Below are positions 4,709 to 28,274 of a DNA stretch of 28,274 bases, in pieces. The DNA is from a virus. The first letter of the stretch is position 1; each line of letters begins with the position of its first letter. Position numbers and translations under genes: made by a program. Location of the stretch: IMG/VR virus record IMGVR_UViG_3300042987_002768, positions 1 through 28,274 of that record; one strand, written 5' to 3'. The notes under the pieces were generated by a model that was not told the DNA's origin, did no database searches, and saw nothing but the letters and a program-made list of their open reading frames with translations.

Positions 4709-4716
4709 AATAAATA
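4709..4716 (+). promoter_or_regulatory. Late-promoter-like box AATAAATA
   Basis: The octamer matches the NATAAATA consensus of T4-like cyanophage late promoters and lies 26 bases before the TTG start of the FmdB-like gene. Late promoters have no -35 element, so the match rests on the box alone. Confidence 0.45.
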
Positions 4717-19780: not shown

Positions 19781-19993
19781 ATGGAAAGCATAGAAAAGCA
19801 TATCGAAGTTGATAAAAAAATCCTTGATGATCCTATGATCTCTGCACAGGCAAGAAGACATACACAAGAAGAACTCAAGTCCTTAGAGAAATGGGCTGAA
19901 CAATACCCAGAGGATCACCACGATCCAACTGCACTGGAACTTTATTGCAATGAAAACCCAGATGCATCTGAATGTAAAATTTATGACGACTGA
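19781..19993 (+). CDS. cp12: CP12-like regulator of the Calvin cycle (70 aa)
   Basis: The C-terminal 25 residues, TALELYCNENPDASECKIYD, are the diagnostic CP12 C-terminal loop with Cys56 and Cys65, which in host CP12 forms a disulfide and binds GAPDH. The N-terminal part lacks the first cysteine pair and has KSLEKWAEQY where host CP12 has AWDxVEEL. Host CP12 holds GAPDH and phosphoribulokinase inactive; phage CP12 is thought to shut down carbon fixation and favour the pentose phosphate pathway. It is embedded between tail genes and overlaps the gp5-like start (TGATG), so it should be expressed late with them. Confidence 0.9.
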   Translation: MESIEKHIEVDKKILDDPMISAQARRHTQEELKSLEKWAEQYPEDHHDPTALELYCNENPDASECKIYDD

Positions 19994-22161
19994 TGACTAA
20001 CGGAACTTTATATAATCCAGGATTTCTTGGTTCTAATTTTAATTGGTGGATCGGACAAATCGCTGATGATGGAACCTGGCGAGACAATATCAATCCAACA
20101 GTCTATAAAAAAAAAGATGAAATACCTGGATGGGGATACAGATATAAGGTAAGAATTATTGGATTACACGACCAAGAAGAAGAAATATTACCATCTGTTC
20201 AACTTCCTTGGGCACAGGTAATGTATCCAGTGACTGCTGGTGGTGGGCAAGGTGGAGCACTTCAGACACCAAATATTCGTCAGGGAATGTTTGTGTTTGG
20301 TTTCTTTTTAGATGAAAGCAACCGACAAGTTCCTGTAATTATGGGAGTTCTTGGAAATAATGCACAAACAGTATTGTCGCCAAACATTGGTGTTACACAA
20401 ACAAATGGAGGAACTGGTAGTTTAGCAACAAGTGGTTATGCAAATCGTGCAAGTGGTGTAGGTTCTGGTAAAGGTAAACCTGAAGTTTCTGATACACAAG
20501 TAGCAACTGAACAACCACCAACTCAACCATCAACTCAACCATCAACTCAACCATCAACTCAACCATCAACTCAACCATCAACTCAACCACCAACTTTGGA
20601 AGCTGCTGGTGGCGCTCAACCTGCAGATGCTGGATCTAAAAAGCAAGACAAAAAACTTAAAGAGGAAAAACCACTGCACGAAATCTGTGAAGAAAAACCA
20701 CGAAATATGAATGTCATTCAGAAAATTATAAAGTGGTTAAGAGATAGATATGAAGGTTTAAAGCAAGGTTTAAAAGACTTTGCAAATGGTGCTATTACTG
20801 GAATAAGTGATAAGTTACAGCAATGGAATAAAGATATTAAGTCTGCATCTGAACGCATTGCAAAGGAGATGAAAGGTCTTTTTGATAGAGTTAAAAAATA
20901 TATCCAAGATAAAATTGCACGATTTTTAAAACCTTTTGAGAATATTTCTCTTCCAACAATTAGAATTAAACTTTTTGAATTAAAGATAGAAGGGTTCAAA
21001 AAGATTTGTTGTATTTTTAATAATATTTACAAACTTCTTTCCGGATTAATTGCAGGATTACTTGCAAAACTCTTCAATAATAAATCACCACAACAAGCAG
21101 TTGATGATGAAAAAGCAGCGCAAAATGCTGCAGCAATTGCAGGAATTCCCATACCAACTCCACAAGAAACTTTTATTCCAAATCCTGCTTGTGTGACTGA
21201 GGAATTGGTTGCAAATGTTCTCGCGGAAACAATTGGAGAAATTTCTTTTGGAATTAATGAAGCAATTTTACCAATCATTACAGAAATTTCAAATTCAAAT
21301 AATGCATATGGTGGAACTCCAATCGGTGCTCTTTCTGCCCCGTCAGTAACCAAATCAATTCTTTCTCTTCCATACAATTCATTAAAAGGAGTAAGAAATT
21401 TTAACGATTTAAAAACTGCTATCGGTACTCAAGCATTTGTAAATGATTTAGCATCTGCAGCAACAATTCTTGCGGGTCCAACATTGGGTAGTGCTGTTAC
21501 TGCGGGTGCTGGTATCATAAAGGCAAATGATTTTGGTGATGTCGTAAACTCTCTTGGAACTGCTCTTGGTGTTGATCCAAAATATGTTGGTCCAGCAGCA
21601 AAGTTTTTAAGAGATGGTGATATTGTAAGTGGTCTTAATTCTCTTGCATCTATTGCTGGTGTTCCACCTGCTGCATTAAATGTAGCAAATTCTTTATTGA
21701 ATGGTGGTGATGTTGTTGCTGGATTGAGTGAGGCTGCAAAAGCACTGGGGGTAGATCCTGTTTTAGTTGGAAGACTTTCAAGTGCTCTTGCATCTATTCA
21801 ACAAGGAAATGTTGCCGCTGCTGCTTTAAGTTTGATTGGAAATGTAAATATTCCAGGGTTGAATATGGATATTGCAAGTGGACTTAAGTTCATTAGTTCA
21901 GTAATGACTATTTTTGACTGTGATCCAAAACCAAAATGCTCTGATGCTGATACTTATACTTTGGGTAAAGGTGTAGGAAAAACAGAACCTGCTTCAAAAG
22001 AAGGAAATGTTGCTGCAAATGAAGCATTTAAAAGAAATACTGAAAGTATAGAAAAACAAACAGTTGGTAGTGGAGCCACTGGTTCTGCTGCTACTGTAGA
22101 TAGATTTGCAGTTCCCAGATCAACTAATTTGGGAACAACCACTGGAATAGTTGGAGCATAA
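19993..22161 (+). CDS. 5: gp5-type baseplate hub protein, OB-fold without lysozyme (722 aa)
   Basis: Residues ~13-125 match the T4 gp5 N-terminal OB-fold: FNWWIGQIADD, YRYKVRIIGLH, LPWAQVMYPVTAGGGQGG and the FVFGFFLDESN strand. No lysozyme or beta-helix domain follows. Instead there is a Thr-Gln-Pro-Ser repeat linker (~175-200), a basic helical segment with amphipathic helices (~235-370), and an Ala/Gly-rich region (~515-630) with repeated ALGVDP-x-VG units. In T4 the gp5 trimer forms the puncturing hub. Here the lytic and spike functions appear to be in other genes. Its start overlaps CP12 by one base. Confidence 0.78.
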   Translation: MTNGTLYNPGFLGSNFNWWIGQIADDGTWRDNINPTVYKKKDEIPGWGYRYKVRIIGLHDQEEEILPSVQLPWAQVMYPVTAGGGQGGALQTPNIRQGMFVFGFFLDESNRQVPVIMGVLGNNAQTVLSPNIGVTQTNGGTGSLATSGYANRASGVGSGKGKPEVSDTQVATEQPPTQPSTQPSTQPSTQPSTQPSTQPPTLEAAGGAQPADAGSKKQDKKLKEEKPLHEICEEKPRNMNVIQKIIKWLRDRYEGLKQGLKDFANGAITGISDKLQQWNKDIKSASERIAKEMKGLFDRVKKYIQDKIARFLKPFENISLPTIRIKLFELKIEGFKKICCIFNNIYKLLSGLIAGLLAKLFNNKSPQQAVDDEKAAQNAAAIAGIPIPTPQETFIPNPACVTEELVANVLAETIGEISFGINEAILPIITEISNSNNAYGGTPIGALSAPSVTKSILSLPYNSLKGVRNFNDLKTAIGTQAFVNDLASAATILAGPTLGSAVTAGAGIIKANDFGDVVNSLGTALGVDPKYVGPAAKFLRDGDIVSGLNSLASIAGVPPAALNVANSLLNGGDVVAGLSEAAKALGVDPVLVGRLSSALASIQQGNVAAAALSLIGNVNIPGLNMDIASGLKFISSVMTIFDCDPKPKCSDADTYTLGKGVGKTEPASKEGNVAANEAFKRNTESIEKQTVGSGATGSAATVDRFAVPRSTNLGTTTGIVGA
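20521..20592 (+). repeat. Six 12-bp tandem repeats (ACTCAACCATCA), coding
   Basis: Five exact copies plus a sixth with one change encode Thr-Gln-Pro-Ser linker repeats in the gp5-type protein. The unit length keeps the frame, so copy number could vary without disrupting the gene. Confidence 0.92.
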
Positions 22162-23732: not shown

Positions 23733-24527
23733 ATGGCTTGGGCACAAGATGAAATGCACATCTATGATGGGCAACTGAATGTTTGTAAAGAAGATTTAGT
23801 TGCTCCTGCATTGGGAATTGGTGAAAAGAAAATCAAAGGTTCTGCATATGTTGAAGGACCACTTCAAATTGGTGATGCAACATCATTTCCAAATGTATGG
23901 GCAACAATGATGGTTGGTCCCGTATCGGGGAATGTAAACGAAAAACCAACAATTCCAGGAACACTTTGCACTGGAATTAATAATCCTTATTCTCTTGCAG
24001 TTGTTGGAGATGCTGCAATTTTTGATAACTTAGACACAAACGGTAACATTAACGTGGGTAAAAATTTAGTAGCACAAGGTGAAGTTTCGTCACGTTGTGG
24101 TAAACATATTCTCTCTGCTAAGAAGAACTTTGATATTCCTCATCCAACAAAAGATGGATGGAGACTGAGACATACTTGCCCCGAAGGACCATCTAATGAT
24201 GTTTATCTTCGCGGTAGAATTACAAATAGAAAAGAAATTAGACTACCTGATTATTGGGAAAAACTTGTAGACCCAACCACAATTACAGTCAACTTAACTC
24301 CAATTGGAGCACATCAAAATGTGATTGTAAAGAGAATTGGAGATAATATAATCTATCTTCAGTCTAATGGTGGAATTCCAATTGATTGTTATTATCACAT
24401 CTATGGAACAAGAGCAGATGGAGAGAGATTAATTTCAGAGTATGAAGGAGAAAGTCCTGCAGATTACCCAGGAAATAATGATGAATACTCTATTTCGGGT
24501 TATCACTATGATGTTAAAAGGAGTTGA
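23733..24527 (+). CDS. Tail fibre or adhesin protein, paralogue 1 (264 aa)
   Basis: Residues ~131-230 form a domain starting KNFDIPHPTKDGWRLRHTCP, continuing EGPSNDVYLRGRITN and LPDYWEKLVDPTTITVNLTP, and ending DCYYHIYGTRAD. The same domain occurs in the next gene. The N-terminal 130 residues contain strand-like segments (GSAYVEGPLQIGDAT and NGNINVGKNLVAQGE) typical of fibre shafts. GGAGG precedes the start. I take it as a short tail fibre or baseplate decoration; receptor and host-range roles are inference. Confidence 0.68.
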   Translation: MAWAQDEMHIYDGQLNVCKEDLVAPALGIGEKKIKGSAYVEGPLQIGDATSFPNVWATMMVGPVSGNVNEKPTIPGTLCTGINNPYSLAVVGDAAIFDNLDTNGNINVGKNLVAQGEVSSRCGKHILSAKKNFDIPHPTKDGWRLRHTCPEGPSNDVYLRGRITNRKEIRLPDYWEKLVDPTTITVNLTPIGAHQNVIVKRIGDNIIYLQSNGGIPIDCYYHIYGTRADGERLISEYEGESPADYPGNNDEYSISGYHYDVKRS

Positions 24528-24529
24528 AA

Positions 24530-25165
24530 ATGACCAGACAATTTGAAACAAGAAACGTAGGATCAGCAGATTGTGCTGATAAAGAAACAACGGGTACAAA
24601 GTCAACAAGATATGATTATGTTGTAAAATCAATCACTGGAGACACAGATTATCCAACAGATGCGTGTACTCCATTTTTACACGGAAATATGCAGGTTGAT
24701 AATATTCAAATTAATGGCAACTGTGGAAACTCGGGTGTTACTGTTTTTGCTGGAGCAAGTTGTTCACTTACAGGAACACTTTCTGCAAACACTGGTTCTT
24801 TTAGTGTAAAACCATTCAACATTCCTCATCCAACAAAACCAGGAATGAGACTTGTACACGCTTGTTTAGAGGGACCAGAAAACGGAGTTTACATTCGTGG
24901 TCGTCTTACAAATAATAACATTATAGAACTACCAGATTATTGGACTGGACTTGTTGACCAAGAAACAATCACAGTTAATCTAACTCAAATAGGTTCATCG
25001 CAAGATTTGATTGTGGATAGAATTGAATGGGGAAAAAGAATTGTAGTAAGATCTGCAAATGCATCAGCAATTGATTGTTACTATACAGTCAATGCAACTC
25101 GTAAAGATGTAGCACCACTTCCAGTAGAGATGGGACAGGATGAAAAGTGGCCCTATGACCCTTGA
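24530..25165 (+). CDS. Tail fibre or adhesin protein, paralogue 2 (211 aa)
   Basis: The ATG at 24530 is preferred over a TTG two codons earlier because AAAGGAG lies 6-7 bases upstream. The C-terminal half repeats the domain of the preceding protein: KPFNIPHPTKPGMRLVHACL, EGPENGVYIRGRLTN, LPDYWTGLVDQETITVNLTQ and DCYYTVNATRKD. The N-terminal half is unrelated and shorter, with GNMQVDNIQINGNCGNSG strand repeats. Gene duplication followed by exchange of the N-terminal attachment region is the simplest reading. Confidence 0.68.
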   Translation: MTRQFETRNVGSADCADKETTGTKSTRYDYVVKSITGDTDYPTDACTPFLHGNMQVDNIQINGNCGNSGVTVFAGASCSLTGTLSANTGSFSVKPFNIPHPTKPGMRLVHACLEGPENGVYIRGRLTNNNIIELPDYWTGLVDQETITVNLTQIGSSQDLIVDRIEWGKRIVVRSANASAIDCYYTVNATRKDVAPLPVEMGQDEKWPYDP

Positions 25166-25977: not shown

Positions 25978-26151
25978 ATGCAAATAAATTTGTGGTTCTG
26001 TAATGAAATGAGGCAATGGCGTTGGACCTTAGTTAAAACTGATAGACCTGTTCTAAGGCAAGAATCCGGTCAAAGAGAAGATTTACGTCAAGCAATGAGT
26101 GACATTGCCAATACTGTAGAATATATGATGAATTCTTCTAAAAATGAGTAA
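25978..26151 (+). CDS. Small Trp-rich hypothetical protein (57 aa)
   Basis: An ATG at 25978, 10 bases after a weak GGAG, opens a 57-codon frame reading MQINLWFCNEMRQWRWTLVK and ending SDIANTVEYMMNSSKNE. Three Trp and several Arg/Glu pairs give it a protein-like composition. It overlaps the next ATG by 8 bases. I recall similar short proteins in T4-like cyanophages but no function. Confidence 0.6.
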   Translation: MQINLWFCNEMRQWRWTLVKTDRPVLRQESGQREDLRQAMSDIANTVEYMMNSSKNE

Positions 26152-26776
26152 GGACGATAAGTATTTTATAGACAAAGTTTCCAAATCTCAAATCAAAGAC
26201 CTACTTCTCACTTATCATTATCTAAAAGATAAATCAAAAGATTTCAAATCACATTATAATTATGGTTTATTTGAAAAATCTTTTACTGATGTAATGAATA
26301 TTGGTGATTGTCTTGCTGCTTGCGTATTCACCAAGATACCTGTACCAGAACTTGCCGTTGGTGCTTTTGGATTACAAAGACACGAACAAGAAGGATTATA
26401 TGAACTTTCAAGGTTGTGTGTTCATCCAAAAATTCAAAAAGAAGAGTATAATATCACTTCTTGGTTTGTTAGTCGTTGTATAAGAAAATTTAAAAAAGAT
26501 ACTAAAGTAAGAGCAATTCTTTCTTATGCTGATAATGATCATCATCAGGGAGTTATATATCGTGCTACAAACTTTAAGTATTATGGATTGAGTGATAAGA
26601 AATCTGATTTTTGGATAAAGCAACCTGATGGTTCTTTTATTAAACACTCAAGGGGTCCAATTAAAGAATTGGAAGGAGAATGGAGAGAAAGAAGTAGAAA
26701 ACATAGATATCTTATGGTGTTTGATAAGGAACTTCAAAAAAAGTTGACTTGGAAAGAAGAAAAGTGGAGTAAGTAA
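26144..26776 (+). CDS. Mom-like GNAT-fold DNA-modification protein (210 aa)
   Basis: Residues 87-95 (ELSRLCVHP), 105-115 (TSWFVSRCIRK) and 125-148 (ILSYADNDHHQG, then YRATNFKYYG) match the pattern I know for phage Mu Mom and related acyltransferase-like proteins. Mom converts adenine to N6-(carbamoylmethyl)adenine, protecting phage DNA from restriction. A terminator follows directly. Whether this homologue modifies cyanophage DNA is unproven; another GNAT activity is the alternative. No Com-like zinc-finger translational activator is seen next to it. Confidence 0.72.
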   Translation: MSKDDKYFIDKVSKSQIKDLLLTYHYLKDKSKDFKSHYNYGLFEKSFTDVMNIGDCLAACVFTKIPVPELAVGAFGLQRHEQEGLYELSRLCVHPKIQKEEYNITSWFVSRCIRKFKKDTKVRAILSYADNDHHQGVIYRATNFKYYGLSDKKSDFWIKQPDGSFIKHSRGPIKELEGEWRERSRKHRYLMVFDKELQKKLTWKEEKWSK

Positions 26777-26817: not shown

Positions 26818-26825
26818 GATAAATA
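26818..26825 (+). promoter_or_regulatory. Late promoter-like box GATAAATA before the tail fibre gene
   Basis: NATAAATA match located 27 bases before the fibre ATG and 16 bases after the terminator, exactly where a new late unit would need a promoter. Confidence 0.6.
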
Positions 26826-26852: not shown

Positions 26853-27794
26853 ATGGGTATTCAAATAGATGGAACTAATGATATAATTTCTGCAGTTGAC
26901 GGTAGTTTATCAATTTCTGGTCAATCTATTGATAATGCAAATTTGAATTTATCACAAAATTTAAATGTTTCTGGTGTTGCTACTGCTACTATACTTAATG
27001 TAGGAACTGGTGGGACAGTTATTACTACAACTTCTGGTGGTAATATTGGCATAGGAACCACAAATTCAAGTGCTCGTTTATCAGTTGACAGCAAATCTAA
27101 TAATCTTATGTTTGACTTGAATAGCACTAATACAAATGGGGGTTATATTCGTTTTAGTTCTTCTGGTGTTCCTTATGGTGATGTTGGAACCGCATATCAA
27201 TGTGTTGTTGGTGGTGGTTCGTCTGATTTTGCGATAAATGCAAGACCTTCAAATTCTTTAATTTTTGGTACAAGTAATACAGAACGGGCCCGCATCGACA
27301 GCTCCGGCAGGCTGTTAGTGGGCACGTCCAGTGCAACTGCCAACGGTGGCGTCCTTCAAGTCTCCAACGGCATCACGTTCCCCGCTACGCAATCGGCGTG
27401 CAGTGATGCCAACACGCTGGATGATTATGAAGAAGGAACCTGGACGCCAACTTTTTCGTCTGCTAGCGCAACCTTTAGTTACAGTTACCAAAGCGGAAGA
27501 TACACCAAAATTGGAAACACAGTACACCTGTACGCATACATTCAGGCAAGTGCTTCTGGCACTCTGACCAATGCTATCAGCATTTCTTCTCTGCCCTTTA
27601 CGCCAAATGCGGGTGTGACTGCTTACAACGCAATCTCTTTAGACAGCAATTCTGGCGCAAACCATATTGCTGGTTATGTGAATCCTGCTGCCTCCATAAG
27701 TATTGACTCTGCACCTGGGACTTCTGCTACGCCCAGCTTTTTGGGGATGACCAGTAGTCGATGGGTAATGCTGGGAGGCTCTTATCAGACGTAA
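26853..27794 (+). CDS. Mosaic tail fibre protein (313 aa)
   Basis: The N-terminal ~140 residues are a typical cyanophage fibre shaft, with NLNVSGVATATILNVGTGG and GNIGIGTTNSSARLSV repeats, written in AT-rich codons. At ERARIDSSGRLLVGT (144-158), a motif shared by many phage fibres, the DNA becomes GC-rich. The C-terminal part has NTLDDYEEGTWTPTF (187-201), another widespread fibre motif, followed by a beta-rich tip with YSYQSGRYTKIGNTVHLYAY. It probably binds the host surface. No clear ribosome-binding site; the late box lies upstream. Confidence 0.78.
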   Translation: MGIQIDGTNDIISAVDGSLSISGQSIDNANLNLSQNLNVSGVATATILNVGTGGTVITTTSGGNIGIGTTNSSARLSVDSKSNNLMFDLNSTNTNGGYIRFSSSGVPYGDVGTAYQCVVGGGSSDFAINARPSNSLIFGTSNTERARIDSSGRLLVGTSSATANGGVLQVSNGITFPATQSACSDANTLDDYEEGTWTPTFSSASATFSYSYQSGRYTKIGNTVHLYAYIQASASGTLTNAISISSLPFTPNAGVTAYNAISLDSNSGANHIAGYVNPAASISIDSAPGTSATPSFLGMTSSRWVMLGGSYQT

Positions 27795-27856
27795 TCAGTA
27801 GCCCGCAACGGCTCAAAACTACGCCTAAACCTGTTTAGTTCGGAGGAACTACCCTA

Positions 27857-28123
27857 ATGGCACAATTTACAGAACGCCACGAGCATCAGCTCGAAATCAT
27901 CCCGCCTTTCAGCATCATCCAGTGCCGCCGTGCGGACATCATCGAAAAGGATGGCGTTGAAGTTGGCAAGACCTACCACCGCCACGTTCGCTATCCTGGT
28001 GAAGACGTAAGCGACGACTGCGCTGAACTGCAAGCAGTGGCTGCTACACTTTGGACGCCTGAAGTGATCGATGCGTACCAAGCGCACCTGACTGAGCAAG
28101 CCGCTAACCGTCCTGGTCAGTAG
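27857..28123 (+). CDS. Fibre-associated phage protein of GC-rich origin (88 aa)
   Basis: The 88-residue product begins MAQFTERHEHQLEIIPPFSI and continues RRADIIEKDGVEVGKTYHRH, then DDCAELQAVAATLWTPEVID. I have the impression of similar small proteins following fibre genes in Synechococcus phages, but no function is known. A GGAGGA ribosome-binding site lies about 8 bases upstream. GC content by eye is well above the replication and baseplate regions, matching the fibre tip and indicating a shared, separately acquired segment. Confidence 0.68.
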   Translation: MAQFTERHEHQLEIIPPFSIIQCRRADIIEKDGVEVGKTYHRHVRYPGEDVSDDCAELQAVAATLWTPEVIDAYQAHLTEQAANRPGQ

Positions 28124-28274
28124 ACCTACTCAATGGTCAAGAGGGCTCGGTGATTACTCGCTGAGCCCCACAAGACACCTTCACTACCCACCCTCGCTAC
28201 CATCCAACCATCACCACCTTCACCTGGCGCATCAACATCTTGTCTCATCCCTTGAATTGAAGTAACTCATCAAC
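28124..28274 (+). other. Non-coding GC-rich end of window
   Basis: No convincing ORF is seen in these 151 bases. A GGGCTC/GAGCCC hairpin (28143-28148 with 28163-28168) follows the gene by about 20 bases but lacks a T tract. The rest is C-rich with several ACCA and ATCA steps and may be the leader of a following fibre gene. Confidence 0.5.

Follow-up and report, generated by a model that had tools for sequence, protein, structure and literature searches.

The tips of T4-type tail fibres (genes 37 and 38) are exchanged through short conserved coding blocks. Exchange of tail-fibre modules is also an event type that is already known (PMC10579305). For instance, the available part of that report describes a fibre gene and the next small gene as common to the Alteromonas phages A5, V22 and P24, which have different tail types. 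There the second gene encodes a chaperone of 176-239 aa, with DUF4376 in two of three phages, and protein similarity is about 35-60% (PMC10579305, same part).

A small gene also lies beside the fibre gene in cyanophage Pam3 (gp24/gp25) and in phage Mu (Tfa), and the small proteins have their strands first and their helices last, according to the extract of PMC9608196 that was available. Receptor-binding heads are known from the Dettilon tailspike gp208 and from lactococcal and Listeria phages (6f7k, 4ios, 6r5w). Hairpins near phage gene starts can act in translational control, as at the T4 gene 43 operator, and RegB alone cuts GGAG when the GGA is unpaired, with the fourth G constrained (both from part of PMC3014915). 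Cyanophage RNA motifs include manA, wcaG and PhotoRC-II; the accessible portion of that paper makes no mention of 'tail' (PMC2864571).

The locus described here, like the Alteromonas module, has a fibre gene and a following small gene in otherwise unrelated genomes. It differs from that module in that the two copies are 95% identical as DNA, the second gene encodes 88 aa without a Pfam match, and the edge lies in a defined motif. Compared with T4 genes 37/38, the motif is a different one, a structured leader lies at the exchange edge, and the spread is across tail types. The small gene resembles Pam3 gp25 and Mu Tfa in its position and its order of strands and helices, but it has no sequence match and no clear fold match to them, and it does not follow the tip. 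The predicted fold of the head is like that of the Dettilon, lactococcal and Listeria heads. Unlike these, the head here comes after a short, conserved motif of the fibre and is swapped as one piece. The leader hairpin is near a gene start, as in the T4 operator, and it carries GGAG, as the RegB sites do; unlike that operator and those sites, the leader also occurs in T7-like phages. A search of the open-access PMC literature found no description of the cassette or the leader and no paper with DDYEEGT. The new parts are the cassette edges, the leader, and the link between a T4-like and a siphovirus-type phage at 95% DNA identity.

The window analysed here spans an entire virus record (28,274 bases). 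Its proteins match the T4-type baseplate hub and lysozyme, tail tube, tail tube cap and baseplate wedge families, as well as a single-strand DNA-binding family, and the nearest phage relatives of the baseplate hub are Synechococcus myoviruses. On these matches, the backbone is that of an AT-rich T4-like cyanophage-type genome. The features of its right end are collected in Table 1.

Table 1. Features at the right end of the window, with the evidence for each.
Feature	Position	Strand	Evidence
Tail fibre gene (313 aa), a mosaic: shaft AT-rich, tip GC-richer	26853..27794	+	ORF; tail-fibre PHROG matches
AT-rich shaft, GC3 0.113	26853..27278	+	Composition; searches of viral contigs and phage records
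Composition change point, best 27284 (3-unit support)	27261..27291	+	Maximum-likelihood change point
Shared motif ERARIDSSGRLLVGTSSA, left edge of module	27282..27335	+	L082 identity 83% in 27281-27340 vs about 96% rightward
Module shared with L082, 95.3% identical over 907 bp	27286..28192	+	DNA comparison
Anchor DDYEEGTW, left edge of relatives' head swaps	27420..27443	+	Nearly invariant in 60 aligned fibres
Receptor-binding head domain, predicted fold like Dettilon tailspike gp208 C-terminal domain	27423..27791	+	Model, VIA-align, profile
Conserved structured leader, fibre to small gene	27800..27859	+	Alignment, covariation, covariance model
Hairpin 1, AGCC-CGCAAC-GGCT; ATAAATA stretch instead in T4-like subset	27800..27813	+	Alignment, folding
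Hairpin 2, TAGTTC-GGAG-GAACTA; Shine-Dalgarno at apex, stem strongly covarying	27836..27851	+	Covariation, folding
phrog_6228 gene, 88 aa; three long strands and two helices	27857..28123	+	PHROG match, model
Strong trailing hairpin, terminator-like, without T run	28143..28168	+	Folding

Near the end of the record, composition changes inside a single gene. A sequence-only reading of the window had placed a switch from AT-rich to GC-rich DNA near 27280, within the codons of a motif common to many fibres. The best single change point in the whole window does fall inside that motif, ERARIDSSGR, with a log-likelihood ratio of 64, and homology to an outside phage begins two bases further on. GC is about 0.33 upstream of the junction and 0.52 downstream. 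GC at third codon positions (GC3), on which the protein places little constraint, rises four- to five-fold, from the shaft value to 0.503 in the tip (27282-27794). The next gene had also been called GC-rich, and its GC3 is 0.573. Six other measured genes of the window lie between 0.119 and 0.199. When the fibre and the next gene are taken alone, the likelihood ratio is 21.1, against a maximum of 13.3 in 518 other 1422-bp stretches from positions 1-27280. The fibre ORF stays in frame across the junction. The record ends 990 nt past the switch with no return to AT-rich sequence, and a single backbone edge is visible.

The DNA on the right of the junction is shared with the contig IMGVR_UViG_3300047550_000610, called L082 here (L187 and L193 are the same contig). 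Identity is 96% in 27341-27500, 98% in both 27501-27794 and 27795-27856, 93% in the small gene and 97% in 28124-28192. Beyond 28192 it is about 30%, and left of about 27275 the two records have no similarity. Searched separately, the two halves of the fibre gene belong to different lineages, as had been expected: the tip and the next gene match L082 at 95%, and the shaft does not. The 142-aa shaft has no match among 50,697 phage records, and four weak relatives in viral contigs (31-49%). The small gene lies within the shared stretch, in agreement with the claim that the downstream gene had moved with the tip.

L082 has 58% GC and encodes a central tail fibre J protein (phrog_31, E 4e-180), and is therefore regarded as a siphovirus-type phage. 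The two carriers differ in backbone, one having a T4-type baseplate and tail tube and the other a central tail fibre J. Within L082, GC3 is 0.48 in the tip, 0.69 in protein J and 0.72 in the shaft. Because of this difference from the rest of the genome, the tip looks imported there too. With the head alone as query, one relative was found in viral_contigs, L082 itself at 97%; the matches of the tip in named phages (22 records) are all below 60% identity.

A GC-richer Synechococcus had been proposed as host of the donor phage or prophage; this was not supported, since the near-identical copy is in a siphovirus-type contig where the tip is atypical as well. A bacterial genome or prophage was likewise rejected as donor. 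Two scans of bacterial and archaeal genome_contigs, one with the small gene and one with a remote member of its family, detect close relatives only; they gave 88 and 100 stretches that match the pattern, and none of them encodes a relative.

The trailing hairpin is common to the window and L082, and the sequences are unrelated past 28192. No clear gene lies 3' of the small gene in 28124-28274. As judged from these DNA comparisons, the module of about 0.9 kb, comprising head, leader, 88-aa gene and trailing hairpin, has a separate history. The hairpin itself was not supported as a general right edge: the energy is below -12 in 45 of 70 folded loci, and no shared sequence was seen.

The motif at the left edge is indeed widespread. 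Pieces that cover it match 12 phage records, including S-CBP2, S-CBP3, S-CBP4, S-RIP1 and S-H1, at 86-94%, and its DNA is present in 27 viral-contig stretches. The 60-base block 27281-27340 differs from L082 at 10 positions, where 2.5 would be expected from the rest (P 3e-4), and the motif of the window is closer to other fibres (S-CBP4, S-RIP1 and L129; 92-95%) than to L082. The sequences suggest that the motif block had a separate history and was not formed by one blunt join. They also suggest that exchange at the motif happened more than once.

The tip of the fibre was compared with known structures through a model of the fibre end (mean pLDDT 72, which is moderate). The best described match is 6f7k_A, the C-terminal domain of the Dettilon tailspike gp208 (VIA-align Z 13.9, rmsd 2.4, 121 aligned). 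This match begins at model residue 48, which is the anchor, and the anchor therefore marks the start of the head domain. LDDYEEGT is almost invariant across the aligned fibre ends. Other structural matches include the receptor-binding heads of reovirus and of phages PSA, TP901-1 and p2, and adenovirus fibre heads. A sequence profile search also gives the Dettilon tailspike (E 3e-6). The tip is thus predicted from its fold to be a phage receptor-binding head, and would itself bind a receptor.

The 88-aa protein matches phrog_6228 with E 3e-26. This family matches 49 phage records, among them phages of Synechococcus, Prochlorococcus, Pelagibacter, Roseobacter and Methylophilales. In the regions viewed, the gene follows a fibre-annotated or hypothetical gene; in the window it follows a fibre gene. 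The model of the small protein is confident (pLDDT 95.6). No Pfam family exceeds the cut-off, no PDB sequence matches, and the fold search gave no convincing match (the top PDB Foldseek result has E 0.11, the top VIA-align result Z 4.1), although the lack of a listed fold says little. Weak matches to levivirus coat proteins occur (2qux, Z 2.6; 1qbe, E 0.81). For this gene, Pfam and PDB gave no sequence match to a known chaperone family (Tfa, DUF4376 or Pam3 gp25).

Head exchange can also be seen among relatives of this locus. Of the fibre and small-gene loci, 137 have a usable fibre, and 110 of these carry the anchor. A search for other phages with one shaft and different tips had been proposed, and an all-against-all DNA comparison gave 20 locus pairs with similar flanks (at least 85%) and different tips. 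The left break is at the anchor in 13 of the 20, and in 15 the right break falls in the 5' part of the leader, 45-85 nt 5' of the small gene start. The clearest pair is L130/L129, with 94% identity over 2019 bp on the left, 95% over 705 bp on the right, and unrelated tips. Similar cases are L026/L058 (92% and 92%) and L151/L146, which are two fibre genes inside S-SRM01. In L114/L115 the right flank is identical and the tips are partly related. The 20 pairs are non-independent, and strong evidence of exchange comes only from flanks above about 92%. Many ends of similarity at the anchor could reflect fast divergence of the tip instead of recombination. With this qualification, the comparisons indicate that in related aquatic phages heads swap between the DDYEEGTW anchor and the leader, and that phrog_6228 often stays.

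The small gene had been described as the partner of the tip. In the window, the tip and the small gene do have a common history. This is no general rule: in relatives the small gene is usually retained while the tip changes. Among 100 non-redundant loci there are 40 pairs with small proteins at least 90% identical; their tips are below 50% identity in 36 pairs, at 50-80% in 1, and at 80% or more in 3. A tip-specific, or cognate, partner was rejected on these comparisons.

Some genomes hold more than one copy of these elements. S-SRM01 (L151, L146) contains two sets of fibre, leader and small gene with different tips. Second copies of the leader are found in L136 (6714-6753) and L135 (4454-4489). 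The extra copy in L136 precedes a 9-codon remnant, and together they look like the footprint of a past exchange.

In the leader, a conserved GCCTAAACCTGT is followed by a hairpin whose apex carries GGAG and, after that, by CCTAATG. Its structure was assessed in 43 aligned rows, drawn from 58 leaders with the core sequence among 137 distinct upstreams; 12 leaders without the apex Shine-Dalgarno, one shifted row and two diverged rows were left out. In the stem of hairpin 2, 93% of cells are paired and all 5 pairs have both-sided changes. Hairpin 1 is 75% paired, the main exceptions being 13 rows that are mostly T4-like, and in 9 of the 43 leaders it is replaced by ATAAATA. Hairpin 1 is not a clean mark of non-T4 phages, however: a hairpin is also present at this place in P-TIM68 and Sf-CH5, whose genomes are of T4 size. 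For the whole structure, 85% pairing is found versus 62% when shuffled, and sliding the partners by one to three columns lowers it to 50% or less. The leader of the window itself folds into both hairpins.

In more distant members of the family another hairpin has the same feature, and both-sided changes occur in 7 of 7 pairs in an alignment of 31 rows chosen by eye for a visible hairpin. In an unselected test, the stem score is at least 5 in 94 of 132 leaders, against 36.9 (sd 3.1) when shuffled.

A covariance model of the leader core matches in 19 of 23 records searched whole; the element is absent from S-T4, Roseobacter CRP-804, Pelagibacter HTVC309P and Kolga in this search. In 82 loci the model gives 49 matches at E 1.3e-10 or better, though many of these rows were used to build it, and all but one L136 copy stop at the start codon of the small gene. 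The leader was not identified as a known Rfam family. Rfam 15 gives 0 matches at gathering score in the window, and the best match at a lax threshold (E 0.32) is outside the leader.

The Shine-Dalgarno at the hairpin apex lies 10 nt 5' of the start codon, and the simplest reading is therefore that the leader acts in translating the small protein. The leader probably controls this translation. Since the hairpin is present without a Shine-Dalgarno in 12 of the 58 leaders, a purely ribosomal role is disfavoured. A more far-reaching proposal is that the leader is an unrecognised RNA element with two jobs, serving as the operator for self-tuned translation of the small protein and as the landing pad for head swaps. 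This is quite unlikely. If it were true, the small protein, which in outline is like an RNA-phage coat, would match its own translation to fibre output, the conserved DNA would be a fixed right-hand swap site across all three tail types, and the cassette would carry both its own control and its own exchange site.

The observations on the window are probably explained by a real exchange, in which a T4-like AT-rich genome acquired the host-recognition module of about 0.9 kb by recombination. An artificial join is a less likely origin but has some weight: the end of an AT-rich phage contig could have been joined during assembly to a co-occurring L082-like phage through the motif, whose DNA is common to many phages. 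The junction is close to the contig end and the right part never regains the backbone. The junction is also found in no independent contig: an exact 30-base pattern spanning it had 0 matches in viral_contigs, a search from which near-identical records may be omitted. Moreover, the window is the extreme of the 137 loci, its small gene having the GC3 most discordant with its surroundings (z 4.0). A de Bruijn join, on the other hand, requires an exact k-mer in both genomes. A GC-rich motif after an AT-rich flank is seen in none of 25 other motif-DNA stretches with a full 500-nt left flank, the lowest GC there being 0.42; since no other left flank is equally AT-rich, the arrangement of the window is unique in this set. 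The drop in identity inside the motif is not expected from one join, the fibre join is in frame, and fibre, leader and small gene together are normal in T4-like cyanophages. The motif was also tried as a hot spot of assembly breaks, but its enrichment at contig ends is not clear: in 2 of 13 whole-contig loci it is no more than 150 nt from an end, where 0.56 would be expected.

It is very improbable that no exchange took place and that the GC-rich fibre end is native to the phage lineage and is kept GC-rich by constraints on the protein or the RNA. Many phages do conserve the motif, the anchor and the leader, and the small gene is GC-richer in two T4-size cyanophages too: its GC3 is 0.52 in Sf-CH5 (locus GC 0.42) and 0.44 in S-T4 (locus GC 0.41). 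In the five other T4-like phages S-SRM01, S-CAM4, S-B05, SynMITS9220M01 and P-TIM68, however, the small gene has GC3 of 0.14-0.32, and neither the jump in GC3 nor the 95% identity to a siphovirus-type phage of 58% GC fits a native end. There is equally little reason to believe that the swaps are driven by a diversity-generating retroelement, or by other dedicated machinery of tip variation, that recognises the hairpin. Retroelement targets do have a hairpin just 3' of a variable receptor-binding end, as is the case here. The hairpin is at a fixed distance from the start of the next gene, though, and the tips differ over about 100 residues, not at scattered adenines. No reverse transcriptase (PF00078) was found in 8 of 8 records, several of which, including the window, are fragments; the control search was positive in 3 of 14 genomes.

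In the preferred explanation, a real exchange, the left crossover would lie within the fibre motif ERARIDSSGRLLVGT, and because of this position the reading frame and the shaft would be retained. The right end of the module would be at or beyond 28192. The cargo would comprise the receptor-binding head, the structured leader, phrog_6228 and the trailing hairpin. The cassette appears to travel, given its 95% identical copy in a phage whose tail is of the lambda type; in that genome it looks foreign as well. Relatives would swap the piece from anchor to leader, and the window would have taken a longer piece. The new head probably changes the surface receptor that the phage binds. The boundaries, the shared stretch, the relatives' similar flanks with different tips and the covariation are observed directly; that recombination was the cause, that the head binds a receptor and that the leader acts in translation is what we infer from them.

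Fibre heads largely set the host range of phages that infect abundant aquatic bacteria. A cassette with defined edges, 95% identical in a T4-like genome of 34% GC and a siphovirus-type genome of 58% GC, offers a concrete route by which receptor specificity may pass from one phage to an unrelated one. Its DNA edges, which are the motif, the anchor and the leader, can be searched for, and swap rates can therefore be measured. The leader is also a conserved structured element, absent from Rfam 15, beside a widespread gene family.

Several other features were observed in the window. Directly 5' of the fibre gene, at 26144-26776, this T4-like phage encodes a Mom-like DNA modification protein (Pfam PF25680, E 9e-22; PHROG 1384, E 2e-29). 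The adjoining genes 23733-24527 and 24524-25165 belong to the related PHROGs 17490 and 28536; each gene matches the two families, and they are probably, from their sequences, a tandem duplication among structural genes. The baseplate hub ORF (19993-22161) contains a short QPST repeat tract at about 20500-20600. About 30 bases 5' of the fibre start, at 26818-26825, is GATAAATA, which is taken here to resemble the T4-type late promoter motif. Further copies of ATAAATA are found at 4709, 6076 and 13383.
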